DNA of 20,844 nucleotides from positions 1 through 20,844 of the IMG/VR virus record IMGVR_UViG_3300050131_000330. One strand, written 5' to 3'. Shown one piece after another: positions 1,299 to 20,135 of this stretch. Below the pieces are notes generated by a model that saw only the letters and a list, made by a program, of their open reading frames with translations, did no database searches and was not told the origin of the DNA. Numbering within the stretch: the stretch's first letter is position 1; each line of letters begins with the position of its first letter. The DNA is from a virus. The position numbers were made by a program, and so were the translations under genes.

Positions 1299-1922
1299 AT
1301 GCCAGGCCTAGTGACGGTAATCCCCGCCGGGAACATCGGCGGGATCGAAGTGGACGCGACGATCGAGGAGATCCACAGCAACTCGCTCCAAGTGACGGAG
1401 CACCCGGTGGAGGCCGGGGCGCTGATCACCGACCACAGCTTTAAGCGCCCCGTCGGGCTCGTGATGCGCTGCGGGTGGAGCAACTCCTCTGCTGCTGCGT
1501 TCAACGCGACCCTCACCGCGCTGTTTTCCGGCGGCGCTGTCGCGCTCTCGGACTACGTGAGCGGCGTCTACTCCCAGCTGCTCGCGCTGCAGGAGACCCG
1601 CGCGGTGTTCGCGGTGATGACGTCGATCTGCATGTACCAGAATATGCTGATGACGGACGTGCAGCTGCTACGGGACCAGAAGACGTCCCAGGCGCTGATG
1701 GTGACCGTCACCTTCCGCTCGGTCATCCTCGTCAGCACGCAGTCCACGACCCTGCCCGCGACGGCGGTGCAGAAGGACCCCGCCAGCAGCGCGGAGGTGC
1801 TGAACAACGGGACGCAGCAGCTGCAGCCCGGCACCCCGGCGCCGGGCGGCGCGGTGCCGCCGCAGATGTGGGTACAGGAAGTGACCGCGCGGGTGATGTC
1901 CCCCAACGAGGTCATCCCGTGA
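1299..1922 (+). CDS. Dit-like baseplate/tail protein
   Basis: This 207-residue protein starts at ATG 1299. Its N-terminal half reads as a Dit-like phage tail protein: a beta-strand around VDATIEEIHSNSLQVTEHPV, then GALITDHSFKRPVGLVMRC, the pattern seen in myovirus Dit-like proteins, where 'TEHPVE.GA.ITDH' precedes a strand. Such proteins join the tape measure/tube end to the baseplate hub. The C-terminal 50 residues are proline- and alanine-rich and probably flexible. The last codon overlaps the next gene as GTGA (GTG at 1919, TGA at 1920-1922), so the two are probably translationally coupled. Its place directly after the tape measure gene supports the call. No clear Shine-Dalgarno sequence precedes it, so coupling to the upstream gene is also likely. 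Confidence 0.7.
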   Translation: MPGLVTVIPAGNIGGIEVDATIEEIHSNSLQVTEHPVEAGALITDHSFKRPVGLVMRCGWSNSSAAAFNATLTALFSGGAVALSDYVSGVYSQLLALQETRAVFAVMTSICMYQNMLMTDVQLLRDQKTSQALMVTVTFRSVILVSTQSTTLPATAVQKDPASSAEVLNNGTQQLQPGTPAPGGAVPPQMWVQEVTARVMSPNEVIP

Positions 1923-4900
1923 GCCGCCTCATCCCCATCATTCGCGTTCCGCACCAGCGTCCGCCGCCGCCGCCCGCGCCCGTGCCGACCCCCACTCTGG
2001 GGACGCCGACCGTCGTCAGCACGAGCGAGATTGACGTCACCGCCGCCTACACCGGGCCGCCGTCGCTCGCGACGTTCACCTTCGAGTACTCTCAGGACCC
2101 GCTGTTCGGGTCCTTCGTGACGTTCGCGGTGCAGAGCGGCACGACCGCGCACGCGACGGGACTGGCGGCGGCGACGCTCTACTACTTCCGCGTCTTCGTG
2201 ACGACGACAGACTCACGCAACAGCGGGTTCTCCCTCACGCATAGCGCGACGACCAGCGCCGTGCCCATCGCGCTGATAAAGGTCAACCCGGGCCACTACC
2301 TCTGGTCCTACAACATCTCCGGCACCGGGCCTTCGAACCAGGGCGAGATGAACAACCTCGCCGACGCCCGCTCTGCCAATGTGCTGGGTGGTGCCTGGAT
2401 CTACCGCTGGGGGACTGTGCAGGCCGCCAAGGGCGTCTACGACTTTTCCTCCATCGGGACGGACTTCAACTACCTGCAGAGCAAGCGCCCCGGCGCGCGG
2501 TTCTGCGCGGCGTTCGCGACCCGCGTGTTCGGCGGCCCCTACACCGCCGCCACAACGGTGAGCGCGGGGTGGATCCCGGCCTACATCCTGAACAACTCCG
2601 TCTATGGCACCCCGGGCGGCGGCGCGGGGCCGAACGGCACGCAGTTCGGCTACACCCTGGGCGAGTACGCGTCCGGCTCCAACTACGGGCAGGTGGCGGC
2701 TTGCATCTGGCGCGCAGTCATAATGACTGAGAAGATCGCACTGTTCGTCAACTTCCTGAACTCCATCGTGCCGGACGGCAGCGGGCTCACCTGGAACAAG
2801 CACCCGCTGTTCGAGGCGATCATCGACTGGGACGAGTCCGTGCTCGCGCTCGCCGGCCCCAACGCGCCGCCCTCGGACTACAGCTGGTCGGCGCTGATGA
2901 CACAGTTGGAGGCCTGGTGGCAGCAGGTGACGGCCGCCGCGACGGAAACAAGCGTGCTGACGGCGCTGAATTTTGCGGCGCAGAACGGCGCGCCGGGGGA
3001 CATGCTGACGCTGCTGACCTCCGCTTACAACGCGCGCGCGGGCTTCTCCTGCCCGGACGTGAAGTACAACGACGCCATCGACGCGCAGCAGGCGTTCCAG
3101 GGCAAGGTCTACAACGGCACCGCGTGGGTCTCGGGCGGCACGAGCTTCAGCAACCGGATGGACTCCTCCCCGCAGGTGCAGCAGCCGGACTACAGCTCCG
3201 GGACCGTGGCGCAGATCTACTCTCAGTGCGAGCTGCTATCGCCCAACCGCATCTTCTGGGGCATGAAGACGGGGACGCCGGGGGATTGGTTCAGCCAAGT
3301 CATCCCCGTCATCAACGCCAACCCGACCCTCAACACCACCTGCCCGACCGAGTACGACGGCATGTGCCTCTCGGGCGGCAGCACCTTGCCCGCGCCCACC
3401 TGGTCCGCGGTCCCCGCGCTCAACTTCACGCAGGGCGTTGCGGGGACCTACAACCTGAACGCCTACTGCGCGAACGCGGTGTCGTTCGCGCTGCACAGTG
3501 GAACGCTGGAGACGGGCGTCAGCCTGAACCCATCGACCGGGGTCGTGAGCTACAACGGCACGAGCCCCGCGGCGGCGAGCGGGTCACTCGTGTTCGCCGC
3601 GACGAATGCGACGGGAAGCGCCAACAGCGCGTCCACCACGTCCAGCATCGTAGCGACCGCGCCGCCGCCAGTCTGGTCCGCGGTGCCCGCGCTCAACTTC
3701 GTGCAGGGAACGGCGTCCACTTACAACCTCAACTCCTACTGCGCGCACGCGAACTCCTTCGCGCTGGCCTCGGGGGCTCTGGAGACGGGGGTCACGCTGA
3801 ACGGGGCCACGGGCGTCCTCAGCTACAATGGCACGAGCCCCGTGGCCGCGAGCGGCGTGCTGGTGTTTGCCGCGACCAATACTGTTTCCACGGTGAACAG
3901 CGGGTCTACGAGTTCGGCGATCGTGGCGCCCGCGCCCGTGTGGTCGGCGCTGCCCGCGCTCAACTTCACGCAGGGCACTGCGGCCAGCTACAACCTCAAC
4001 TCCTACTGCACCAATGCCGCGTCCTTCGCGCTGCAGTCCGGGACGCTGGAGACAGGGGTGACGCTGAACGGCGCCACCGGCGTCGTCAGCTACAACGGCA
4101 CGAGCCCCGTGGCGGCCAGCGGCGCGCTGACCTTCCGCGCGACCAACGGGGTGGGGTCGACGGTGAGCGCCGCGACGACCTCGGCGATTTCGTCCTTCGT
4201 GTTCAACGTCTTCGTCTCCCCCACCGGCAACGACGCCAACCCGGGGACCCTCACCAGCCCCTGGGCGGTGACGTCGCTCATGGGCGCGACACAGAACGCC
4301 AACAACGTCGCGAACTTCAACGCCACGAAAGGCAAGTCTGTGGGCTTCCTGCCCGGCGTCTACAACGTCGGCGCTTTCATGAAGACCAACTCCTGGGAAG
4401 GCGCGCTGCAGATCCCCGGGGGCACTTCCGGGAGCCCAACGACCTGGGCCAGCTGTAACGCCTCGGGCGTCTACACTCCCGGCACCGCGACGATCAACGC
4501 CAAAACCGGCAGCGTGTTCGGCGGCTTCTCCAACGGCAGCCTCACCTACAACGGGCCGGTGTTGGCGAACACGCAGCCGCAGTCCGGGTCCGCGGGCTAC
4601 GCCTCGGGATACCTCACCCTTGACGGCCTCGTGTTCACTGGCTGGTGCTACAAGGCCATCCGCATCGGCGGCAACTCCTCGGGTGAGGGGCCTGCGAACG
4701 TGCAGGGCGTCACGGTGCAGAACTGCATTGGCACGGGCGGCGGCCACAACGCGGGGGACCCGACCGACAACTCTGGGTGGCTCTGGCTCGATTACTGCGT
4801 CGGCGCGGTCGACTTCAATAATTACGTGCACGACAACATCGGTTGCTCGGGCGCGAATAACTCGGACCATCAGTACTCGACGATCCTCTGGGCCTGCCAG

Positions 4901-5689
4901 GGCTGCAGCGTCAGCTACGATACGGTCGTCAACGCGGGCTACATTTGGGGCAAGGAGAAGTCGAACCAGGGCAACAACGTCCACCACAATTATGTGGACA
5001 GCTCGATGTACACGACGCAGTCGAGCGCGAACGGCATCTCGGATTTCACCGGCTCCCCGACTGCGGGCCTGACCCAGACGACGAACTTCCATCACAACAT
5101 TCTGAAGTCCAGCAGCTTCGGGGCGGTGCTCATCTCGACGCTCTCGCACTCGGGCGGATGGATTACGCCCGTCAACTTCTACAACAACACGATCATCATG
5201 AATTCGGGCGCCGGGGTTGTCGAAGCCGCTGTTTGGCTCGCCTCGATTGGCGTTACCGGGAACATCAAGTATTACAATAATATCTTGACGGGCGCGATCT
5301 CCGGCGACTACCGCATGATCGTGCTCGACCCACTGGGGCCGAACATTTGGGACTACAACGGGGTGCCGAGCGGCGCGACTTACTCCCTGGTGAGTAACTC
5401 CAACCCCGGCACCATCATAGCGAATTACTCCGGTATCGCCGCGGCGCAAGCGGGCGTGACGGCGAACGGCGGCATCACGATCGACGCGCACTCGGTCACG
5501 AACTCAGCGCCGAACTTTGTCGGCGGAACCCCCGCGCTGCCTTCGCAGGCCTACCAGCTCAACAGCGGCTCACCGTTCAAGACCACGGGCTCGACCGACG
5601 GCACCACGGGCGGCGCGCCGTGCGAGATGGGTGCGTGGGGCGGGGCCGCTCCGCCCGTCAATGTCGGGTACAACCCGGCGGTGACTTAA
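1919..5689 (+). CDS. Giant multidomain tail protein: Fn3, glycoside-hydrolase-like, three Ig-like repeats, right-handed beta-helix
   Basis: A 1256-residue protein. The start is the GTG at 1919 overlapping the Dit-like stop; the open frame upstream of it overlaps the Dit gene and is not coding. Domains in order: proline-rich N-terminus (8-25); fibronectin-III-like domain (about 25-115); a region of about 370 residues (117-490) resembling TIM-barrel glycoside hydrolases, with GAWIYRWGTVQAAKGVYDF near its start and E299 in HPLFEAIIDWDES as a possible acid/base; three tandem Ig-like (He_PIG-type) repeats of 89-91 residues (about 495-759); and a right-handed beta-helix (about 765-1245) opening with VSPTGNDANPG. 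The beta-helix is paralogous to the protein encoded at 15236-16810. It probably sits on the virion tail tip and binds or cleaves a host surface polysaccharide. Fn3, Ig-like and beta-helix calls are firm; the hydrolase call is tentative and its substrate unknown. Confidence 0.75.
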   Translation: MSRLIPIIRVPHQRPPPPPAPVPTPTLGTPTVVSTSEIDVTAAYTGPPSLATFTFEYSQDPLFGSFVTFAVQSGTTAHATGLAAATLYYFRVFVTTTDSRNSGFSLTHSATTSAVPIALIKVNPGHYLWSYNISGTGPSNQGEMNNLADARSANVLGGAWIYRWGTVQAAKGVYDFSSIGTDFNYLQSKRPGARFCAAFATRVFGGPYTAATTVSAGWIPAYILNNSVYGTPGGGAGPNGTQFGYTLGEYASGSNYGQVAACIWRAVIMTEKIALFVNFLNSIVPDGSGLTWNKHPLFEAIIDWDESVLALAGPNAPPSDYSWSALMTQLEAWWQQVTAAATETSVLTALNFAAQNGAPGDMLTLLTSAYNARAGFSCPDVKYNDAIDAQQAFQGKVYNGTAWVSGGTSFSNRMDSSPQVQQPDYSSGTVAQIYSQCELLSPNRIFWGMKTGTPGDWFSQVIPVINANPTLNTTCPTEYDGMCLSGGSTLPAPTWSAVPALNFTQGVAGTYNLNAYCANAVSFALHSGTLETGVSLNPSTGVVSYNGTSPAAASGSLVFAATNATGSANSASTTSSIVATAPPPVWSAVPALNFVQGTASTYNLNSYCAHANSFALASGALETGVTLNGATGVLSYNGTSPVAASGVLVFAATNTVSTVNSGSTSSAIVAPAPVWSALPALNFTQGTAASYNLNSYCTNAASFALQSGTLETGVTLNGATGVVSYNGTSPVAASGALTFRATNGVGSTVSAATTSAISSFVFNVFVSPTGNDANPGTLTSPWAVTSLMGATQNANNVANFNATKGKSVGFLPGVYNVGAFMKTNSWEGALQIPGGTSGSPTTWASCNASGVYTPGTATINAKTGSVFGGFSNGSLTYNGPVLANTQPQSGSAGYASGYLTLDGLVFTGWCYKAIRIGGNSSGEGPANVQGVTVQNCIGTGGGHNAGDPTDNSGWLWLDYCVGAVDFNNYVHDNIGCSGANNSDHQYSTILWACQGCSVSYDTVVNAGYIWGKEKSNQGNNVHHNYVDSSMYTTQSSANGISDFTGSPTAGLTQTTNFHHNILKSSSFGAVLISTLSHSGGWITPVNFYNNTIIMNSGAGVVEAAVWLASIGVTGNIKYYNNILTGAISGDYRMIVLDPLGPNIWDYNGVPSGATYSLVSNSNPGTIIANYSGIAAAQAGVTANGGITIDAHSVTNSAPNFVGGTPALPSQAYQLNSGSPFKTTGSTDGTTGGAPCEMGAWGGAAPPVNVGYNPAVT
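3398..4196 (+). repeat. Three tandem coding repeats of Ig-like domains
   Basis: Three copies of about 267-273 bases lie inside the 1256-residue protein gene. Units begin at the Trp codons at 3401, 3674 and 3941. Each encodes W-S-A-(V/L)-P-A-L-N-F-(T/V)-Q-G, then Y-N-L-N-(A/S)-Y-C, SFAL.SG.LETGV.LN, and SYNGTSP.AASG. At DNA level the block encoding SYNGTSP is almost identical in all three (around 3549, 3819 and 4089), which suggests recent tandem duplication or gene conversion. The protein pattern matches putative Ig (He_PIG-type) folds used as stalks in surface proteins. One Cys is conserved per unit (in YC). Confidence 0.85.
4211..5646 (+). repeat. Beta-helix module, copy A (dispersed intragenomic duplication)
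   Basis: This coding segment aligns collinearly, from VSPTGNDAN to GAWGG, with the segment at 15350-16729. Shared exact peptide blocks include NAGYIWGKE, NQGNNV, SSANG, GLTQTTN and GDYRM. DNA similarity is visible in places, for example around 4934-4980 compared with 16037-16086. The copies have diverged enough that the duplication is not very recent. Confidence 0.85.
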
Positions 5690-11616: not shown

Positions 11617-11631
11617 ACCCGGAGCCCATTG

Positions 11632-13512
11632 ATGATAACCAAGCCTGCTGTCGTCAATGCCTGGGCAGATGGGGCAGTGGCGCCGGTGGACATTGTGGAG
11701 CCATCCGGAGCGTTTATCGAAGCTGGATGGCTGATGAGCGCGACGCCGCCCGCGCGGCAGTATTGGAACTGGGTGTTGAATTTCTGCGCCAATGGGATAC
11801 GGTATTTTTCGCAGCGCGGCATCGTGGACTATGACCCGCTGGAGACTTACTCCATCGGCGCCATCGTGCGCGGCGACGACGGCGTCGTCACGCAGTCGAT
11901 GACGAACGGCAACCAGGCCAACACCCCCTCCACCTCGCCACTGGAGTGGGGGCCGGTGAGCTGGTACTCGCGCACCGCGCAGGAAATCGCCAACGGCGTT
12001 GTCCCGACCAACCTCGCCGTCCTCCCCGGGCAGTTCGAACGCTACGGCGCCGCAGGCGACAACGTGACGGATGATCACATCGCCGTCCTCGCGGCCTTTG
12101 CCTCCGGGCACACGGTGACGGGGATCAACGGGGTCACCTACTTCTGCGGCACCGGGACGCTCAACATCCCGGCGAGCGGCATCCGCGCGGTGCTCTACGG
12201 GGTGAAGCTGCGGACGCAGGTGAATGCGCAAGCGTTCCTCAATTTCACCGGTTCCTTTCTCGAAATCCGCGGCTTGGAGTATTACGGCCGCGGCGGCACA
12301 GTGTACGCGGGGAACGAGAACGGTTTCCAGTGGAGCGGCACAGGCAGCAACTCCGCGCCACCCGTCTATGTGACGGGGCTGCGATTGATCGACGTCTACG
12401 GGCACGACTTCGGCTCCCGCACCTTCTTCTCCGCCTACGGCCAGCAGGCGTTCATCAACGAAGGCTGCGTGTTCAAGAACATGGCCTACGCGGGCGGCCA
12501 CGTGCTCTCGGGGCTCAACTGGGACGTCTGCCCGCAGCTGATCGACATGAACAACCCGCCGGGCGCGTCGTCCGCCAACGCCTACGGCTGGTCCTTCACC
12601 CGCGACCCGACGCTGAGCGACAACCTCGCGTTCGCGCCGCGGAGCAAGAACTGCAAGGCGCACAACATCACCGTGCGCAACAACAACATTTGGACCGCGC
12701 TCGACACTCACGGCGGCGAGGAGTGCGTGTTCTCAGACAACATCATTGAGAACTGCGCATTCGGCATCACCATAGGCTCCTGCCCGGGAATTTCCGGCCT
12801 TTCCAAATTCGCGCCGAAGAACTGCAAGTCCATCGGCAACACCGCGTTTGGCTGCGCGGCGGCCGGCGTCGGCGGCTACGGGGTGACGATCAACGGCGCG
12901 GGCACCGTGACCGGGACTCCGATCGACCTCGCGACCGGGTGCATGAGCATCGGGGACACGATTTCCAACTACGGCGTGCGCGCCTCCTCCTCCAACGGCG
13001 GCGCCTACTTCCTCTACACCCAGGGGTTGGTGGTCGCGGACTTGACGGCGAACCAGTGCCTCTATAACGCCATTTGTATGTACCACGACAACTACAATTT
13101 CGTGGTCAACGGCGGGTGCGTCACCGACCCCTACGACAACGCCGGGACGGACTGCGCCGGGCTGCGCCTCGACGCCGGGTACAACACGGGGCTGGTGAAC
13201 GGGCTCGCGCTGCTGCGGGTCAACCCGGCGCTCGGCACGACGGTCGCCGCGCGCGGCATCTACATCGTGACGGCGACCGCCTCCAGCATCATCATCGGCC
13301 CGAACGTGAACACCTTCACGCTGCCCTACTCCGGCATTCCAAACTTCGCGCTCGCGAACCTGGTGGACAGCACCGGGGCGACGGAGGGCAATAACCTCAT
13401 CACCTCCCCCGGCACCTACGACGCGCCGACGCTGAATGGGCAGCTGGCGGCGCTCGCGGGGAAGGTGATCGGGATCATGGCGACGCTGAAGAACCTTGGT
13501 GTGATGCAGTGA
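11632..13512 (+). CDS. Tailspike/tail fibre with pectate-lyase-like beta-helix
   Basis: A 626-residue protein. ATG 11632 is preferred over the TTG directly before it, because GGAG at 11621-11624 lies 7 bases upstream. Residues 1-130 look like a virion-attachment domain (KPAVVNAWADGA, AGWLMSATPP, YWNWVLNFCANGIRYF). Residues 137-148 read RYGAAGDNVTDD, the classic opening of pectate-lyase-superfamily tailspikes, followed by a right-handed beta-helix rich in Asn and Gly (HNITVRNNNIW, ECVFSDNIIENC). It probably binds and cleaves a capsule or O-antigen polysaccharide. It shows no clear similarity to the other two beta-helix proteins beyond fold, so it is not a third copy of their module. The C-terminus is a short helical tail (LAALAGKVIGIMATLKN). 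Confidence 0.8.
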   Translation: MITKPAVVNAWADGAVAPVDIVEPSGAFIEAGWLMSATPPARQYWNWVLNFCANGIRYFSQRGIVDYDPLETYSIGAIVRGDDGVVTQSMTNGNQANTPSTSPLEWGPVSWYSRTAQEIANGVVPTNLAVLPGQFERYGAAGDNVTDDHIAVLAAFASGHTVTGINGVTYFCGTGTLNIPASGIRAVLYGVKLRTQVNAQAFLNFTGSFLEIRGLEYYGRGGTVYAGNENGFQWSGTGSNSAPPVYVTGLRLIDVYGHDFGSRTFFSAYGQQAFINEGCVFKNMAYAGGHVLSGLNWDVCPQLIDMNNPPGASSANAYGWSFTRDPTLSDNLAFAPRSKNCKAHNITVRNNNIWTALDTHGGEECVFSDNIIENCAFGITIGSCPGISGLSKFAPKNCKSIGNTAFGCAAAGVGGYGVTINGAGTVTGTPIDLATGCMSIGDTISNYGVRASSSNGGAYFLYTQGLVVADLTANQCLYNAICMYHDNYNFVVNGGCVTDPYDNAGTDCAGLRLDAGYNTGLVNGLALLRVNPALGTTVAARGIYIVTATASSIIIGPNVNTFTLPYSGIPNFALANLVDSTGATEGNNLITSPGTYDAPTLNGQLAALAGKVIGIMATLKNLGVMQ

Positions 13513-13642: not shown

Positions 13643-13944
13643 CAGACGTGCAAGAACCCAGCGCGTGGCTCGGCCCCATCGCGACGGCCGTGCTCGCTTT
13701 ATTGGCGGGGGCATGGCTGTTCATAAAGCGGCATTTTAATTTGGTGATGCGCGAGGAAATCATGGCCGAGACACAGAAGGAGTTCCTGAAGCTCCAGACC
13801 ATGATCCTGGAGAATCGCTCAGAGGCGTCGAAGGGTCGCGAGACGATCTACGTGCGGCTGGGTAACCTGGAGTCCACGGTCTCGTATTTGAAGGGCGTCG
13901 TGGAGTCCCACTCCAACCGGCCAACTCGCGGGCGCAAAATTTAA
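13639..13944 (+). CDS. Small membrane protein with coiled coil
   Basis: A 101-residue protein from ATG 13639, with AGGAGAG at 13624-13630 eight bases upstream; the longer in-frame extension to 13534 is arginine-rich and unlikely. Residues 10-30 form one membrane segment (LGPIATAVLALLAGAWLFIK), followed by a charged helix and a coiled-coil stretch (REEIMAETQKEFLKLQTMIL; LGNLESTVSYLKGVV). The topology (short N-terminal part, one TM, long charged helix) is compatible with an inner-membrane spanin subunit or another lysis-cassette protein, but no family is recognised. It opens a run of three small membrane proteins. Confidence 0.6.
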   Translation: MTDVQEPSAWLGPIATAVLALLAGAWLFIKRHFNLVMREEIMAETQKEFLKLQTMILENRSEASKGRETIYVRLGNLESTVSYLKGVVESHSNRPTRGRKI

Positions 13945-13957
13945 ACGGAGAAGTGTT

Positions 13958-14128
13958 ATGACACTCGGTCTAATCCTCGTAATCGTCCTCATTGTCTTGT
14001 TGCTGGGCGGCTTCAGCGGCTTCAGCGGCTTCGGCGGCTACGGCTACGGCTTCGGTCACGGTGGCATTGGCGTGCTGGGCACGGTCCTCATCATCGTTGT
14101 CGTGCTGATGTTGCTGGGGAGGATTTGA
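13958..14128 (+). CDS. 56-residue two-TM glycine-rich protein, DUF3309-like
   Basis: A short gene from ATG 13958 to TGA 14128, with GGAG at 13947-13950 seven bases upstream. The protein starts MTLGLILVIVLIVLLLGG, continues with a Gly/Phe/Tyr-rich loop (FSGFSGFGGYGYGFGHGG), and ends with a second hydrophobic segment closed by LLGRI. This is the layout of DUF3309 proteins, which are small, proteobacterial and have two membrane segments around a Gly/Tyr-rich loop and an LLGR(I/L) end. The function of that family is unknown. The loop contains a repeated GFS unit encoded by a 9-base tandem repeat (GGCTTCAGC at about 14009-14026). It may act in holin-like permeabilisation, which is speculation. Confidence 0.65.
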   Translation: MTLGLILVIVLIVLLLGGFSGFSGFGGYGYGFGHGGIGVLGTVLIIVVVLMLLGRI

Positions 14129-14132
14129 AGCG

Positions 14133-14747
14133 ATGGCGAGCACGTCGGATCATCCTGCAATTCGACCGGATCCAGATCCTACCTTCCTCACGACAGCGGC
14201 GTTACTGCGCGAGGTTGCCAATGCCAAGGAGTTGGTGTTCACTAAAATTGTGTGTCTGGAAAAAGAGCTCGGAGATCTGCATGCGAACGTGCATCAGATA
14301 CCCACACAGCGGGCAATAGATATTGCGGCGTCGGAAAAGTTGGTTGATTCTAAGTTCGCCAATATTGAAGAGAAATTTAATGGAGTGCGGACGCAGTTCC
14401 AGGAGCGCGACACCCGTGTGGATCAAACGGCCCGCGCGTCCAAGGAAGCTCTCGACGCTGCGCTACAAGCTGCAAAGGAAGCGGTCGGTAAGCAGAACGA
14501 CTCATTCGTAACCTCGATTGCGAAATCTGAGGCTGCAACCGCCAAACAGATCGACCAATTAGTGCTGTTGCAGAACGCGAGCGCCGCGTCAACGAACGAT
14601 AAGATTGAGGACCTGAAAACGCGCTTGTCTGCATTCGAGGGGCGTGGGATGGGTCGCAGCGATATCTGGGGTTATGTGCTTGCTGCGGTGGGTCTTGTTG
14701 CAACACTGGTCTCGGTGATTTATTACGCAGGTCACCTTGGCCATTAA
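14133..14747 (+). CDS. Long coiled-coil protein with C-terminal membrane anchor
   Basis: A 204-residue protein from ATG 14133, with GGAGG about 10 bases upstream inside the end of the previous gene. Residues 20-160 are highly charged and helical with coiled-coil character (AKELVFTKIVCLEKELGDLH, ANIEEKFNGVRTQFQERDTR, ALDAALQAAKEAVGKQ). Residues about 178-200 form one membrane segment (WGYVLAAVGLVATLVSVIYY). Proteins with this plan (coiled coil, 'ALQAAKEAV', C-terminal TM) occur repeatedly near phage lysis genes, without known function. Base composition is visibly more AT-rich than the flanking genes (for example 14220-14400 and 14470-14620), which may mark separate ancestry. Confidence 0.65.
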   Translation: MASTSDHPAIRPDPDPTFLTTAALLREVANAKELVFTKIVCLEKELGDLHANVHQIPTQRAIDIAASEKLVDSKFANIEEKFNGVRTQFQERDTRVDQTARASKEALDAALQAAKEAVGKQNDSFVTSIAKSEAATAKQIDQLVLLQNASAASTNDKIEDLKTRLSAFEGRGMGRSDIWGYVLAAVGLVATLVSVIYYAGHLGH

Positions 14748-14756
14748 CATGCACGG

Positions 14757-15239
14757 ATGAACTTCCTCCTGACCCGCGACCCCGCGCGGCCGCTCTGTTC
14801 GCTGGGAACCTTGCTCATCGCAGAACTTCGCCTGGACTCCTTGGAGCGCCCCTGGGTCCCGGACCCGTTGGGCGGCGTCTGCGGCGAGCCGGACCTTTCC
14901 TGTGTGCCGCTGGGGCTTTACGACCTGGTGCTGCACGATACCGCGGAGCACCCCAAGACCTGGGCGCTGGTCAATCCCGCACTGGGCATCTTCCACGAGC
15001 CCGCGGGCATTCCGCTCGGTCAGCGCGGCCGGTTCGCCTGCTTAATACACCCAGGCAACTGGGCGTGGCAGAGCATCGGGTGCGTGCTGCCCGGCCTTGG
15101 GCGCGCGCCGAGTGGGCACCGTTCTCGGCGGAGGCGGTTGCAAAACTGGATGGTGACAGACTCTGACGTTGCGATGGAACAGATACGGGCCGCAGTGCCT
15201 TGGGCAGCCGGACACACCATGGAGATCCGTCAATCATGA
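14757..15239 (+). CDS. DUF5675 family protein
   Basis: A 160-residue protein from ATG 14757. It has the DUF5675 pattern: LTRDPARPLCSLGTLLI, LERPW, CVPLGLYDLVLHDTAEHP, then CLIHPGNWAWQSIGCVLPG. H98 and C109 in HPGN.....S.GC resemble the catalytic His and Cys of L,D-transpeptidase (YkuD) folds, though DUF5675 proteins have no established activity. The C-terminal third includes a basic patch (HRSRRRRLQNW). It lies between membrane proteins and a holin-like gene, a frequent place for this family. The stop (TGA 15237-15239) overlaps the ATG of the Tat beta-helix gene. Family call good, role unknown. Confidence 0.7.
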   Translation: MNFLLTRDPARPLCSLGTLLIAELRLDSLERPWVPDPLGGVCGEPDLSCVPLGLYDLVLHDTAEHPKTWALVNPALGIFHEPAGIPLGQRGRFACLIHPGNWAWQSIGCVLPGLGRAPSGHRSRRRRLQNWMVTDSDVAMEQIRAAVPWAAGHTMEIRQS

Positions 15240-15250
15240 ACCCTGCAGTG
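15220..15250 (+). repeat. Imperfect direct repeat, left copy, at the start of the Tat beta-helix gene
   Basis: This 31-base stretch matches 16822-16854 with two substitutions in the spacer, one after the shared core, and a 2-base gap. The core TCAATCATGAACCC (15230-15243) is exact in both and contains the start codon of the following gene. GGAG of the likely ribosome site is also shared. The pair brackets the whole Tat beta-helix gene. Confidence 0.8.
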
Positions 15251-16810
15251 TCACGGCGAAAATTTATCGCCCTGGGATCGGCTGGCCTGATCATGATGGC
15301 ACCGGGCGTCTGGTCTTTGTCGCGGGCGACAGTCGGGCCGACTTTCGACTATTACATAAGTCCGACGGGTAACGACGCCAACGCCGGTACGGTCGCGAGC
15401 CCCTGGGCGATCACGAGTGCTCGTTACGGTAGTGCGAACTTCACGAAGACCTACGGTAAGCGCGTCGGCTTCATGCCGGGCACCTACAATGTCGCGGCTT
15501 ACATGCAGAAGGACTCCTCCACGGGCGCTCTGCAGATCCCGGGCGGCACAGCGGCGAGCCCGACTTACTGGGCCTCCTGCGATGCTTCGGGGAACTATAG
15601 TCCCTTGACGGCAACGATCACCGCGCTCGCGGGCGGAGTCTACGGCGGCATCCCCGGCACGACCTACAACGGCCGCAACGGACCCGTCATAGCGAATACG
15701 AAGAGCAATTATCCTTCCGGCAATTTTACGATCGACGGTATCGTGCTCAGCGGCTTCGCCTACAAAGGTATTCGAGTGGGCGGCGGCTCCTCCGGCGACG
15801 GCCCCAGCAACGTCGCGGGCGTCACAATCAAGAACTGCCTCTTCACCGGCGGCAGCTGCATCGGCAACGCCACGGACAATTGCTTTGCGGTGTGGCTCGA
15901 CTACACCTTGGGCGCAGTCGTTTTCAACAACAAGTTCTTGAACAATTTGGGCTTCGCCAACGGTAGCTGCGATCACTTGGCCGCCGTCGGCACGTGGGGC
16001 GCGCAGGGGTCGCAGATCTCCTTCAACACGATGCAGAACGCGGGCTACATCTGGGGGAAGGAAAATGCCAACCAGGGCAACAACGTCTTCAACAACTTTA
16101 TTGATGTGTCGATGTACACTGGGCAGTCGAGCGCGAACGGTCTCCAGGATTTTACCGGTGCTACCGCGACGGGCCTAACCCAAACGACGAACATCCACCA
16201 CAACATCATCCTCTCCAGTTCCTTCGGCCTCGGGTACTACGGGCTCAACCAGGCGGACGGCTGGACCACTCCGGTCAACTTTTACAGCAACACGATCGTG
16301 ATGGTGCAGACAGGCGGCCAGATCATCGAGGCGGCGATCTGGATGTACTCCGAGGTCGCGAAGAACGTGACGCTGCACAGCAACCTCGTGACCGGGGCGG
16401 TATCGGGGGACTACCGGATGTTCCGCTTCAACGCGGGCGGCTTGCTCCAGTGGGACTACAACCTCTTCCCCGCGAACGCCACGTGGGACCTGCTCGCGAA
16501 CGGCGCGGGCGGAGTCTACAACAGCCCCGCCTACGGCACTCTTGCGAGCATCCAGGCGGCGGTGGCTGCCGCGGGGTTCTCGGGCTTCGAGGCGCACGGA
16601 GTACAGAACAGCAATCCGCAGTTCGTCGGCGGAAGCCCCTCATCGCCCGCAGCCGCCTATCAGCTGCAAAGCGGATCGCCCGCCAGGGGCAAAGGCAAGG
16701 GCGGCATCGACATCGGCGCCTGGGACGGCACGGTGACGCAGATCGGCTGCGCAGCGGCCGTCGTCGCGACGGTGGCGCCCCGCCCTCCCAGCAATGTAAC
16801 CGTGAGCTAA
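15236..16810 (+). CDS. Tat-signal right-handed beta-helix protein, paralogue of the giant tail protein's C-terminus
   Basis: A 524-residue protein. ATG 15236 is chosen because it overlaps the DUF5675 stop as ATGA and because it places a full twin-arginine signal at the N-terminus: SRRKFIALGSAGLIMMAPG (residues 6-24). From residue 39 (YYISPTGNDANAG) to about 498 the protein aligns collinearly with the C-terminal beta-helix of the protein encoded at 1919-5689, sharing blocks such as NAGYIWGKE, NQGNNV, GLTQTTN.HHNI and GDYRM. Parallel-beta-helix proteins of this look include polysaccharide lyases and hydrolases, but catalytic residues cannot be picked out. The signal suggests export of folded protein to the periplasm of the infected cell, in contrast to the tail-bound copy. 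The C-terminal 25 residues (GCAAAVVATVAPRPP) are hydrophobic and proline-rich. Fold and signal are well supported; activity is unknown. Confidence 0.8.
   Translation: MNPAVSRRKFIALGSAGLIMMAPGVWSLSRATVGPTFDYYISPTGNDANAGTVASPWAITSARYGSANFTKTYGKRVGFMPGTYNVAAYMQKDSSTGALQIPGGTAASPTYWASCDASGNYSPLTATITALAGGVYGGIPGTTYNGRNGPVIANTKSNYPSGNFTIDGIVLSGFAYKGIRVGGGSSGDGPSNVAGVTIKNCLFTGGSCIGNATDNCFAVWLDYTLGAVVFNNKFLNNLGFANGSCDHLAAVGTWGAQGSQISFNTMQNAGYIWGKENANQGNNVFNNFIDVSMYTGQSSANGLQDFTGATATGLTQTTNIHHNIILSSSFGLGYYGLNQADGWTTPVNFYSNTIVMVQTGGQIIEAAIWMYSEVAKNVTLHSNLVTGAVSGDYRMFRFNAGGLLQWDYNLFPANATWDLLANGAGGVYNSPAYGTLASIQAAVAAAGFSGFEAHGVQNSNPQFVGGSPSSPAAAYQLQSGSPARGKGKGGIDIGAWDGTVTQIGCAAAVVATVAPRPPSNVTVS
15350..16729 (+). 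repeat. Beta-helix module, copy B (dispersed intragenomic duplication)
   Basis: Second copy of the module at 4211-5646; similarity starts just after the Tat signal and ends at GAWDG. Copy B lacks the Fn3, hydrolase-like and Ig-like parts that precede copy A. Confidence 0.85.
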
Positions 16811-16821
16811 TCACTACCCCG

Positions 16822-16854
16822 TGGAGACCCCTCAATCATGAACCCCGCGCAGTG
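16822..16854 (+). repeat. Imperfect direct repeat, right copy, at the start of the holin-like gene
   Basis: Partner of 15220-15250. It contains the same TGGAGA element, the exact core TCAATCATGAACCC (16831-16844 region) with the start codon of the holin-like gene, and AGTG at the end. The repeat makes both encoded proteins begin MNPA although their continuations are unrelated. Confidence 0.8.
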
Positions 16855-17212
16855 GACCACCTCCCAGATTGCGAAGACCGCGCTCATCGGCATGCTCGGC
16901 GCCATCCCCGTGCTGGCCCCCAATCTCGCGAAGACCTTTGGCCTGACAGATTCGACCCTGATCGGGGAAAAAGCGGACGCGCTCATGGCCCTCGGCGGGG
17001 GCCTTTGGATGCTGGGGTCGTTGGTCTGGGCACTAATCGAGCGAGTGCGCTCCAACGTCCAGCCGCTGACGCTCACCAAGGCCGCCGCGGCCGCCGCCAT
17101 AACCCCCACCTCGCAAGTGATGCAGGACGCGCACGACGCCATACAGGCGGGCGCGACGATTAACAGCGTTGACATTGTCCCCCCTTCCCCGATTGACCTG
17201 GAGCCCAAGTAA
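16838..17212 (+). CDS. Holin-like small membrane protein
   Basis: A 124-residue protein from ATG 16838 with GGAG about 11 bases upstream. Two hydrophobic segments are visible: KTALIGMLGAIPVLAPNLA (about 13-31) and ADALMALGGGLWMLGSLVWA (about 46-65), the second followed by ERVRS, a usual positive cytoplasmic edge. The C-terminal half is polar and alanine-rich, ending DIVPPSPIDLEPK. Size, topology and place beside lipoproteins and DUF5675 fit a holin or a related late membrane protein, but no named family is recognised. The lipoprotein gene begins two bases after its stop. Confidence 0.5.
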   Translation: MNPAQWTTSQIAKTALIGMLGAIPVLAPNLAKTFGLTDSTLIGEKADALMALGGGLWMLGSLVWALIERVRSNVQPLTLTKAAAAAAITPTSQVMQDAHDAIQAGATINSVDIVPPSPIDLEPK

Positions 17213-17213
17213 C

Positions 17214-17684
17214 ATGAAATACTTCCCCCGTTTCCCCCTCATCGCGCTCGCTGCGGTGCTCGCCCTCACGGGCTGCGCGACGCTCAACAACCTGACCAAC
17301 ACGCAGGTGGTCGTCGCGAACCAGGTGCTCACCCTCGGCGCCGAACTTTACATACAAAAGGCCGGCGGAACCGCGGTGCCTCCGGCGCTTTTTTCCGTCG
17401 CGCAGCAGGCGCGGGCGCAGCAGCTGAAGAGCTTCGCGGTGGAGATTAACGGCTTTGCAAGCGGCACCGTGCCACTGACGCAGTTGGACGGAGTGCTGGC
17501 GGGTTGGATCGCGAAGGCGAAGACTCCTCTGGAGCAGGGGTTGCGGCAGGCGCTGATCTTTGAAGTAGATCAGCTGCTCGCCACGAAGATCACTTCCGGT
17601 GCGTTGAACGCCGCGGCGACGGCCATCGTCAGCGAAATATCCGCAGACTGGATCACGGCGGCGACCGCTTACGGCGCAGTGTGA
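17214..17684 (+). CDS. Phage lipoprotein
   Basis: A 156-residue protein from ATG 17214, with GGAG at 17201-17204 nine bases upstream; the open frame further upstream overlaps the holin-like gene and is not needed. Residues 1-21 form a lipoprotein signal (RFPLIALAAVLALTGC) with lipobox LTGC and acylated C21. The mature part is helical (VVVANQVLTLGAELYIQKAG, PLEQGLRQALIFEVDQLLA) with no cysteines. It probably sits in the periplasm, attached to a membrane. As it follows a holin-like gene it could be an outer-membrane spanin component or a superinfection-exclusion lipoprotein, but at 135 mature residues it is larger than most o-spanins. The stop overlaps the next gene as GTGA. Confidence 0.65.
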   Translation: MKYFPRFPLIALAAVLALTGCATLNNLTNTQVVVANQVLTLGAELYIQKAGGTAVPPALFSVAQQARAQQLKSFAVEINGFASGTVPLTQLDGVLAGWIAKAKTPLEQGLRQALIFEVDQLLATKITSGALNAAATAIVSEISADWITAATAYGAV

Positions 17685-17980
17685 GGCTGACGGAGCTCAA
17701 CCCCCGCTGGTATGTCCTGCCGGCGGGGGGACCGAAGATAGGGCTGACGTTCGACTGCCCGCATTGCCGGACGGAGCGGCTTGGCGTCGCGTTTCACCAC
17801 ACGGGGCGAGAGGCCATGGAGGATGCCGAGCTGCACACGCACGGGCAGAATGGCCCCATTTGGCTCATCTCCGGAGACTCCGACGGCTACTCCTTTGAGC
17901 ACCTGTCGTTGTCGCCTTCTATAGATGCAAGCGCCGTGGGGCATTGGCACGGGTTCATCACGGACGGCGAGGTAAAGTAA
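17681..17980 (+). CDS. Small Cys/His-rich phage protein (possibly DUF6527-like)
   Basis: A 99-residue protein from GTG 17681, coupled to the lipoprotein stop. It has LNPRWYVLPAG at the start, GLTFDCPHCRTERLGVAF with C26, H28 and C29, WLISGDSDGY in the middle, and a C-terminal LSLSPSID....GHWHGFITDGEV with H88 and H90. The Cys and His positions could bind a metal. Small phage proteins with this 'FDCPHC ... LSPSI ... HWHGFI' plan are familiar, and the ending recalls the DUF6527 group, but I am unsure of the family. No signal peptide or membrane segment, so it is presumably cytoplasmic. Its function is unknown. Confidence 0.6.
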   Translation: MRLTELNPRWYVLPAGGPKIGLTFDCPHCRTERLGVAFHHTGREAMEDAELHTHGQNGPIWLISGDSDGYSFEHLSLSPSIDASAVGHWHGFITDGEVK

Positions 17981-18012: not shown

Positions 18013-18489
18013 GTGAAACGATTAACAGCCCTTTTTGCAACGCTACTCACTGGATGCGTCGCAGTAACTCCGCCGAGCATCGTTCGTGATGCGGAAGAAA
18101 TTGTTCCCTGGCCGATCGCTGTACTGACGACCGACTGCCCCGCGCAGTACATCGGCGAGGTGGGCGCGCCGAACGGTGAAATCTACTTTCTCAACTGCTG
18201 GGGCGACAGCGTAGATGGAACTGAAACCGATGTCGCCTTCACACCGCTCGTGCTGCATGAGTCGGCGGCCGTGCCGCCCAAGCCCTTTAAGCTATTCGTT
18301 GTCACCCGCTGCAAGAAGCCTGTGCAGCTGGTCGGCATTGCCGACGACGGCGCAGTGTTCAGCGAGCCAGCGAAGCACATGCCGATAGCGGAGCTGAACA
18401 AACGCATCGCAATGGTGGAAGCGAGCAACGTCGTCTATGTCCCTTTGCCCGTAACCTGTGCACCGCCCCCGGGAGGATCCAACCTGTGA
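18013..18489 (+). CDS. Phage lipoprotein, uncharacterised
   Basis: A 158-residue protein from GTG 18013. The N-terminus KRLTALFATLLTGC is a short lipoprotein signal with lipobox LTGC and C15 as the lipid site. The mature part has no recognised domain; strand-rich segments IAVLTTDCPAQYIGEVG, GEIYFLNCWGD and KLFVVTRCKKPVQLVGI are visible, and C38, C58, C97 and a C-terminal CAPPPGG could form disulphides in the periplasm. Its stop overlaps the start of the peptidase gene (GTGA at 18486-18489), and the ribosome site for the peptidase lies in its last codons. The pair is therefore probably co-translated and might act together. Confidence 0.6.
   Translation: MKRLTALFATLLTGCVAVTPPSIVRDAEEIVPWPIAVLTTDCPAQYIGEVGAPNGEIYFLNCWGDSVDGTETDVAFTPLVLHESAAVPPKPFKLFVVTRCKKPVQLVGIADDGAVFSEPAKHMPIAELNKRIAMVEASNVVYVPLPVTCAPPPGGSNL
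18471..18477 (+). promoter_or_regulatory. Strong ribosome binding site for the cysteine peptidase gene
   Basis: GGGAGGA lies eight bases before GTG 18486, the best Shine-Dalgarno match in the window. It is inside the end of the lipoprotein gene and fixes the overlapping GTG as the peptidase start. Confidence 0.7.
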
Positions 18490-19268
18490 CTAGACCTGTT
18501 CGCTTCGGCCGCCAGCCCCGCAAGCACGACACCCGCATCCCGCACATGAGCGCGTTGCTGGCGGGCAAGGCATCCCCCCCTCCACCGCCGTCTGCAGACT
18601 ATACGGTCGGGATGCCCGCGGACCTGGGGATCATGCTCAATGGGACCCTGGGGGATTGCACCTGCGCGGCGCTGTTCCACGCGCTGCAGGTCTGGACCTT
18701 CAACGCCGCCGCGGCGATGGTGACGCCGCCGGACTCCGACGTGCTGGCGCTCTACGAAGCCGCCTGCGGGTACAATCCCGCGGACCCCTCCACGGACCAG
18801 GGCGGGGATGAGCAAGCGGTGCTGGCCTACGCGCTCAACACCGGGTTGCAGACCGACGCCGGGATGCACCGCCTCGCCGCGTATGTTGAGATCGACCCGA
18901 AGAACACCGACGATGTGCGGCGCGCGATCGCGGCTTGCGGCCTCGTTTACATCGGATTCGATGTGCCTCAATATCTGGCAGACTACTTAACCGCGCCGAA
19001 TTCCGTTTGGGATCTTTGGCACAAAGCCGACAACAGCATCGCGGGCGGGCATGCAGTTATTCTTGCTGGATACACTAGCAGTGGTGTGCGGGTAATTTCC
19101 TGGGGTAACTATTACACCATGACCTGGGACTTTTTCGCTCGCCGGGTGGACGAGGTCTACGCGCTGGCGGACGCGGATTGGATAAAGGCGACGGGCCTTT
19201 CCCCCGGCGGCTTGTCGCTCGCGGCGCTGAAGGCGCAGATGCTGGCCTTGAAGGCTGAAGGGACGTAA
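18486..19268 (+). CDS. Papain-like cysteine peptidase (C1-like fold)
   Basis: A 260-residue protein from GTG 18486. The order of catalytic motifs matches a papain-like fold: LNGTLGDCTCAALFHALQVW with nucleophile C58; SIAGGHAVILAGYTSSGVRV with H189; and ISWGNYYTMTWDFF with N208 at the Asn position. The N-terminal 45 residues are basic then proline-rich (KASPPPPPSADY) with no signal peptide, so the protein is either virion-borne, cytoplasmic, or released at lysis. Related 'GDC ... GGHAV ... SWG' proteins occur as phage accessory genes with unknown targets. It lies between a lipoprotein and a lipase, so an envelope or host-protein target is plausible. The triad is clear; substrate is unknown. 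It could also be an inactive fold relative. Confidence 0.75.
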   Translation: MTRPVRFGRQPRKHDTRIPHMSALLAGKASPPPPPSADYTVGMPADLGIMLNGTLGDCTCAALFHALQVWTFNAAAAMVTPPDSDVLALYEAACGYNPADPSTDQGGDEQAVLAYALNTGLQTDAGMHRLAAYVEIDPKNTDDVRRAIAACGLVYIGFDVPQYLADYLTAPNSVWDLWHKADNSIAGGHAVILAGYTSSGVRVISWGNYYTMTWDFFARRVDEVYALADADWIKATGLSPGGLSLAALKAQMLALKAEGT

Positions 19269-19271
19269 GGG

Positions 19272-20135
19272 GTGTTCACCCCCGCGCGCGCGGCGCAGCT
19301 CGGGTTGCTGGTCAATTACGCCATGGATATGTACCGCGGCGACCGGGAGAACCTCACCCCCGCGCCGGACGCGCGGCTCGCGCCCGACTGGCGGTTGCTC
19401 GGGTACCTCGCCTCCAGCGACTGTCTGTTCCGCCGCGGGCAGACTTTGGCGCTGGGCGACCCGGTGTGCTTTGGGTATTTGGCGCAGAACGTTGCCGAGC
19501 CGTCGCAGTACATCGCGACCTTGCGAGGGACTGACGGCATCATAGAGTGGATCGAGGACGCGGAGTTCCTCCCCATCGCGCACCCGGCGGGCGGGAAAGT
19601 GGAGGAAGGGTTCTACGACCTTTACTCCGACATGAGGTATTTGAGCGCCGCCCCAGCGGGGTCGGACCCCGCGCAAGCACCGTTCGCGGCCGCCGGCATC
19701 GCTGCCGCGGTCGGCACCGGCACGCTGACGGTCATCGGCCACAGCCTCGGCGCCGCAATGGCGACGTACCTGAGCTACGACCTGGCGGCGCCGGATGCGT
19801 TGGACACGCGGGTGGCGACCTGCCTGCTGGCCTCCCCGCGGCCTGGGGATGCCGCCTTTGTCAAAGCGTTCGCCACGCGGGTTAAAGCCGCGCAAGCCTT
19901 TGCGTACGAGCTGGATATCGTCCCGCGGGTTCCATTGGGCCCGGACTACACGGACCTGTTGAGTTTAAACTGGATTGGCATCAACACTGCGCAGGCGAAG
20001 ATCTGTTTCTCGCTCCCGTGCCATCATCATGTGTTGAGCTACTGCTCCATGCTGGACTGGGCCTTAACGGACTGGCGCAAGGCGCTCGCGGTGGACGCAC
20101 CGTTCGTGGCCTGCATAAAGGGGCCTGCTTCTTAG
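19272..20135 (+). CDS. Class-3 lipase (alpha/beta hydrolase)
   Basis: A 287-residue protein from GTG 19272, three bases after the peptidase stop. The nucleophile elbow is VIGHSLGAAMATYLSYDL with S158. The acid is D215 in YELDIVPRVP, and the base is probably H253 in CHHHVLSYC. Upstream, YIATLRGTDGIIEWIEDAEF is the usual oxyanion-strand region of lipase class 3 (RGT), and KVEEGFYDLYSDM matches its 'v..Gf...y' helix; ASPRPGDAAFV follows the nucleophile as expected. No signal peptide or membrane segment is present. The enzyme would hydrolyse acyl esters, perhaps phospholipids or storage lipids. Its place after a cysteine peptidase suggests a role in envelope breakdown at lysis or entry. The fold and triad are firm; substrate and timing are inferred. 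Confidence 0.85.
   Translation: MFTPARAAQLGLLVNYAMDMYRGDRENLTPAPDARLAPDWRLLGYLASSDCLFRRGQTLALGDPVCFGYLAQNVAEPSQYIATLRGTDGIIEWIEDAEFLPIAHPAGGKVEEGFYDLYSDMRYLSAAPAGSDPAQAPFAAAGIAAAVGTGTLTVIGHSLGAAMATYLSYDLAAPDALDTRVATCLLASPRPGDAAFVKAFATRVKAAQAFAYELDIVPRVPLGPDYTDLLSLNWIGINTAQAKICFSLPCHHHVLSYCSMLDWALTDWRKALAVDAPFVACIKGPAS

Follow-up and report, generated by a model that had tools for sequence, protein, structure and literature searches.

Gene content of the window

The stretch of DNA that we analysed (the window) covers positions 1 to 20,844 of the virus record IMGVR_UViG_3300050131_000330 and, at 20,844 bases, is probably a fragment. Its tail genes are of the contractile-tail type (tape-measure end, long tail protein, baseplate hub, wedge, J proteins and tail fibre), and the baseplate J protein shows 42-52% identity in its best matches, which include phages of Burkholderia, Bordetella and enterobacteria. 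After the tail genes follows a run of genes for small exported or membrane proteins. The gene of interest (Table 1) is an open reading frame of 524 residues. Its ATG shares the sequence ATGA with the stop codon (TGA) of the DUF5675 gene, and a GGAG lies at 15221-15224, 11 bases 5' of this ATG. The neighbours of the gene encode a holin-like membrane protein (without a family match in Pfam, PHROGs or NCBIfam), two lipoproteins, a lipase-3 protein and another protein that has a Sec-type leader and matches an Ig domain weakly; the region resembles a cassette for lysis and envelope functions. A scan for sigma-70-type promoters and simple terminators found none beyond chance across 13900-17700, and therefore the gene is probably co-transcribed with the late genes.

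Table 1. Features at the locus and in the long tail protein gene, with their positions in the window
Feature	Position	Strand	Evidence or remark
Long tail protein (1256 aa)	1919..5689	+	Lies between tape-measure/tail genes and baseplate genes; carries the same module C-terminally
Beta-helix module, tail copy (tail residues 762-1242)	about 4202..5644	+	blastp 423 bits; the L003 tail protein ends likewise
DUF5675 gene, upstream	14757..15239	+	PF18925 31.9 bits, above cut-off; phrog_1501; ATGA overlap with the next gene
Direct repeat, copy 1	15214..15246	+	3' end of the DUF5675 gene, ribosome-binding site, start and first codons (MNPA) of the twin-arginine leader gene
Twin-arginine leader beta-helix gene (524 aa, P0001)	15236..16810	+	Open frame, ATGA overlap, GGAG, match to the tail module
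Twin-arginine leader (residues 1-31)	15236..15328	+	SRRKFI and hydrophobic stretch; TIGR01409 15.3 bits, residues 5-27
Beta-helix module, free copy (residues 37-498)	15344..16729	+	Alignment to the tail module; AlphaFold model
Direct repeat, copy 2	16816..16848	+	Includes the ribosome-binding site and start of gene 16838 with its opening codons (MNPA), and a non-coding remnant of the DUF5675 3' end
Small membrane protein, holin-like by position	16838..17212	+	Hydrophobic segment
Lipoprotein with weakly spanin-like N-terminus	17214..17684	+	Leader ends in LTGC; NF037950 (spanin2) 15.1 bits, far under cut-off

One module in a tail protein and in a free protein

The module of the free protein aligns with the C-terminus of the long tail protein with 51% identity over 485 columns (blastp, 423 bits, E 1e-139). 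Identity by blocks of 40 columns is mostly 34-68% and the whole module is covered; at the DNA level the two copies are 65% identical over 875 nt (E 2e-45), and the best of 200 shuffled controls reached 43 bits versus 423 for the real pair. Since the shuffles score low, the match runs along the whole module and similarity is kept in the DNA, we regard the resemblance as true homology. Chance or low-complexity similarity, which the earlier note had named (as an Asn/Gly resemblance) as the finding that would undo its claim, is ruled out by the shuffle scores and the DNA-level match. The same note had proposed that a twin-arginine N-terminus, starting at the ATG fixed by the overlap with the DUF5675 stop codon, precedes a module collinear with the tail protein's C-terminus, so that one module occurs twice, C-terminally in a tail protein and in a free protein; all of this is borne out. 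It had placed the tail copy at 4211-5646, which is correct in location, whereas the bounds shift slightly, the match being a little longer. Nothing in the tail protein corresponds to residues 1-36 of the free protein; its module is preceded by Ig-like repeats instead. Three similar Ig-like repeats are present in the long tail protein, the N-terminal domain of which matches no family. The tail fibre at 11629-13512, considered as a third copy of the module, has no significant match to either copy.

There is no sign in the sequence that the free copy has decayed into a remnant relative to the tail copy. In a relative rate comparison with the only other full-length relative (L003, see below) as outgroup, the free copy alone had changed at 37 sites and the tail copy alone at 45 (chi-square 0.78), and 12 of the 15 charged or histidine positions that are identical in the two tail copies (window and L003) are kept in the free copy; the three members show no change at D47, K75, D167, H247, K275, E276, D290, H321, H322, D407, H454 and D497. 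The balanced rates and the charged residues that have been kept argue more for a functional protein than for a degenerate one.

The twin-arginine leader

The free protein begins with MNPAVSRRKFIALGSAGLIMMAPGVWSLSRA, in which the motif SRRKFI is followed by the moderately hydrophobic ALGSAGLIMMAPGVW, as in Tat substrates, which have a motif of the type S/T-R-R-x-F-L ahead of such a stretch; cleavage is likely after SRA at residue 31, a site chosen by eye. We compared the leader with those of eight Tat substrates of E. coli (DmsA, FtsP, CueO, TorA, EfeB, FdnG, AmiA and MepK) on the NCBI Tat profile TIGR01409. DmsA scored 25.1, FtsP 21.3, CueO 21.0, TorA 17.0, EfeB 14.2 and FdnG 8.7 bits, and AmiA and MepK had no match; the phage leader with its 15.3 bits, just under the cut-off of 16.7, falls inside the range of these eight. 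EfeO and TorC, which are not Tat substrates and use other ways of export or anchoring, did not match TIGR01409, nor did nine other N-termini from the window. Among 2,000,000 random N-termini of equal composition, 23 showed a strict pattern of twin arginine plus hydrophobic stretch. Because the score lies within the E. coli range, the controls are null and the pattern is rare in random N-termini, the leader is probably a Tat signal, as had been claimed before.

It might instead be a Sec signal or a membrane anchor, or the protein might be a minor part of the virion. The hydrophobic stretch is only moderate (Kyte-Doolittle 1.65 over 19 residues), a classical AxA cleavage site is absent and the profile score just misses the cut-off, which would fit such an explanation; however, SRRKFI is near consensus, several genuine E. 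coli Tat leaders score lower, and the exported or anchored non-Tat controls score nothing at all. As regards the virion, the free protein lacks every N-terminal part of the long tail protein. We consider export by a route other than Tat, or none, rather unlikely.

Relatives of the module

Full-length searches of Pfam, PHROGs and NCBIfam found no family that covers the module, and no family of known activity matches it beyond its cap; neither phage genomes nor plasmids contained a match, and PDB sequences offered nothing notable. A search of 2.9 million viral contigs found just one more full-length relative, the C-terminus of a 1543-residue tail protein (L003:6938-11566) in IMGVR_UViG_3300010396_000064 (L003), with 31-33% identity. 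In that protein the module is preceded by a GH5 cellulase domain and, before this, by four He_PIG repeats, which ties the module to glycan targets. It resembles our gene in the full length of the module, but in the tail form only: no form with a Tat leader was found in the 42.8 kb L003 record, nor a second phage example of one elsewhere. Two DNA pattern scans of the viral contigs for conserved motifs revealed no further relatives, and a contig related in its tail genes (L023) has no match to the leader-bearing gene. The phages of the window and of L003 are otherwise different, yet the long tail proteins of both (1919-5689 in the window) end in the beta-helix module.

The cap motif YYISPTGNDANAGT matches the N-terminus of the pectate lyase PelN with 18 bits over residues 31-58 only (PelN cut-off 740), and the PelN profile has no match over the full-length free protein, so that the profile does not assign the whole protein to pectate lyase family 9. 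Enzymes of this family have a catalytic lysine and calcium-binding aspartates; K275, E276 and D290 of the free copy, unchanged among the three members, could not be assigned to such roles, nor could other residues be assigned to catalysis. Bacterial matches share with the module mainly the cap motif xYYVSPTGNDANPGT, which occurs in many cellular proteins, mostly directly after a signal peptide, as in the free phage copy. Capture of a bacterial gene is less likely, though the pattern scan used is insensitive: no full-length bacterial relative was found in genome contigs (cap motif only), in plasmids or in 199 genomes from the phylum of L013 (an Acidobacteria MAG).

Predicted fold and closest known systems

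An AlphaFold model of the module, built from an alignment of nine rows (mean pLDDT 57, pTM 0.66; three sequences gave a pLDDT of 31.8), is a right-handed parallel beta-helix, predicted with modest confidence and unreliable at residues 384-491. It agrees with the beta-helix of the earlier note and is of the polysaccharide-lyase or tailspike kind. Foldseek ranked Pel9A first (E 1.9e-4), and the best VIA-align Z scores, 24.6-27.2, went to AlgE epimerases (AlgE6, Z 27.2, rmsd 3.7, 320 residues aligned), rhamnogalacturonan lyase (26.4), Pel9A, the Sf6 tailspike (25.4) and RbmB (24.8). These scores are nearly tied and so speak for the fold and for a role related to glycans, not for one particular enzyme family. 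Pectate lyase family 9 is close in predicted fold through Pel9A and in the short cap through PelN, but has no sequence match past the cap. The tailspike and depolymerase beta-helices of Sf6, HK620, K5 lyase and Kp32gp38 are alike in predicted fold and probable glycan target, but they are virion parts, whereas the free copy starts with a Tat-type leader and lacks a tail-attachment domain.

The most similar system is bacterial. WceF of Pantoea stewartii is a tailspike-like beta-helix trimer with a Tat signal that hydrolyses stewartan (PMC7949094; structure PDB 6TGF, PMC9915841), and its authors suggest that it was acquired in coevolution with phages (PMC7949094). In both proteins a tailspike-like right-handed beta-helix follows a Tat leader, and both concern a polysaccharide that is also targeted by phages, in our case as judged from sequence and model. 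In contrast, WceF is encoded by a bacterial gene in an exopolysaccharide operon, is larger and has N-terminal and neck domains, whereas the phage also keeps the same module in its own tail. The likeness is one of description, and no PDB sequence match was found; WceF was not among the best 50 fold matches listed, with which a likeness is still compatible. The beta-helix folds, we presume, in the cytoplasm, so that Tat rather than Sec would suit the module, and by analogy the logic of the Tat route in WceF may apply to the phage beta-helix too.

A direct repeat brackets the gene

A feature that goes beyond the earlier note is a direct repeat of 33 nt (28/33 identical) on the two sides of the gene; the next best place in the window reaches 19/33. 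Its exact core, TCAATCATGAACCC, occurs at two places only in the window (0.03 expected), and the starts of our gene and of gene 16838 agree at 26 of 32 positions, the mean over 231 pairs of gene starts being 10.1/32. In frame, the sequence 5' of the ATG in the second copy reads VETPQS*; the first copy has MEIRQS* there, which is how the DUF5675 protein ends. The similarity ends sharply at both sides. That the leader derives from the beginning of gene 16838 past the repeat was rejected, since the DNA similarity does not extend further (score 33 versus a codon-shuffle mean of 36.6). Because the repeat brackets the gene and contains the ribosome-binding sites and starts of both genes together with the DUF5675 relic, an insertion of the gene where the DUF5675 and holin-like genes of a late operon meet is probable. 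The simplest reading of the sequence is that gene 16838 once followed the DUF5675 gene in direct coupling, and that the new gene entered this joint and duplicated it; no sister phage with both neighbours and an empty site was found. The free copy would have arisen from the lineage of the tail module before it was placed between the two genes.

A gene that looks inserted, like accessory genes, might serve the host in lysogeny and remodel its exopolysaccharide, as proposed for Pantoea WceF, the nearest functional precedent (PMC7949094), instead of acting in the lytic cycle. However, the promoter and terminator that a phage moron (accessory gene) would carry for itself were not seen beyond chance in the scan of 13900-17700 for sigma-70-type promoters and simple terminators, the gene's ATGA overlap with the upstream gene leads one to expect late expression, and the window, an incomplete fragment, contains no integrase. 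We regard lysogenic conversion as very unlikely.

Possible role of the free module

The fold and the export route are each known, and their combination and genetic setting are without phage precedent in the searches made; likewise, the literature searched holds no case of a phage-coded Tat-exported tail module, an absence that applies to that scope and is no proof. The earlier interpretation, that the module is carried both on the virion and as a free protein sent to the periplasm, is partly supported, namely by the homology, the Tat-type leader, the ATGA overlap, the repeat and the lack of decay, together with a predicted fold. We give roughly even chances to the gene product being a Tat-exported free counterpart of the glycan-active module of the tail, a reading in which we infer the export, the glycan activity, the biological role and the insertion event. 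Its best-supported site of action is the periplasm or the surface of the infected cell, plus the medium after lysis.

The gene would be translated late in infection, probably coupled to the DUF5675 gene, and the folded beta-helix would be carried to the periplasm by a putative host Tat system, with removal of the leader near residue 31. There the module may act on the polysaccharide that is also targeted by the tail and cut (or epimerise) chains on their way to the surface, so that receptor sugars would be reduced on the infected cell and on its debris, which would lead to less superinfection and less loss of progeny; after lysis, a free depolymerase would be present in the medium. Going further, a tail-tip receptor module turned into a free Tat-exported protein might strip the infected cell of the virion's own glycan receptor (or mask it) and thus be a self-matched factor for superinfection exclusion and progeny release, a proposal that we consider possible but doubtful. 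T5 Llp and phi80 Cor are small, exported superinfection-exclusion envelope proteins of phages that alter protein receptors of the infected cell; the free module would be like them in being phage-coded, exported and directed at the receptor of the infected cell, but they are not copies of tail domains and their receptors are proteins.

The module might also bind the receptor glycan without cutting it and so mask the infected cell as a decoy. Being the same module as in the tail, it should see the same ligand, and some adhesins are beta-helix proteins, among them PfbA, one of the fold matches listed; on the other hand, the free copy shows no loss of conserved charged or histidine residues relative to the tail copy, although both copies may be non-catalytic. 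Taken together, we think a pure decoy unlikely.

If a free module that acts on glycans is the right reading, a dedicated, Tat-addressed copy of a tail module would provide a separate route to the receptor, from inside the infected cell, in addition to phage depolymerases known as virion parts released at lysis, and the match to the receptor would be built in because the exported and the tail protein come from one module. It would also bear on the suggested phage-tailspike origin of bacterial enzymes like WceF, since a comparable form sits here in a phage.

Further genes of the region

In the DUF5675 protein (14757-15239) the stretch IHPGNWAWQSIGC resembles, by eye, the H...SxGC motif of L,D-transpeptidase-like folds, and the related contig L023 has a different small gene in the region that corresponds to the DUF5675 gene of the window. 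For the phrog_19005 protein at 18486-19268, three viral contigs encode close relatives (48-60%), each time beside other neighbours, and the protein may represent a mobile function. It is followed at 19272-20135 by a class 3 lipase gene (PF01764, 59 bits), which lies in the phage late region and adjoins genes for secreted proteins and lipoproteins.
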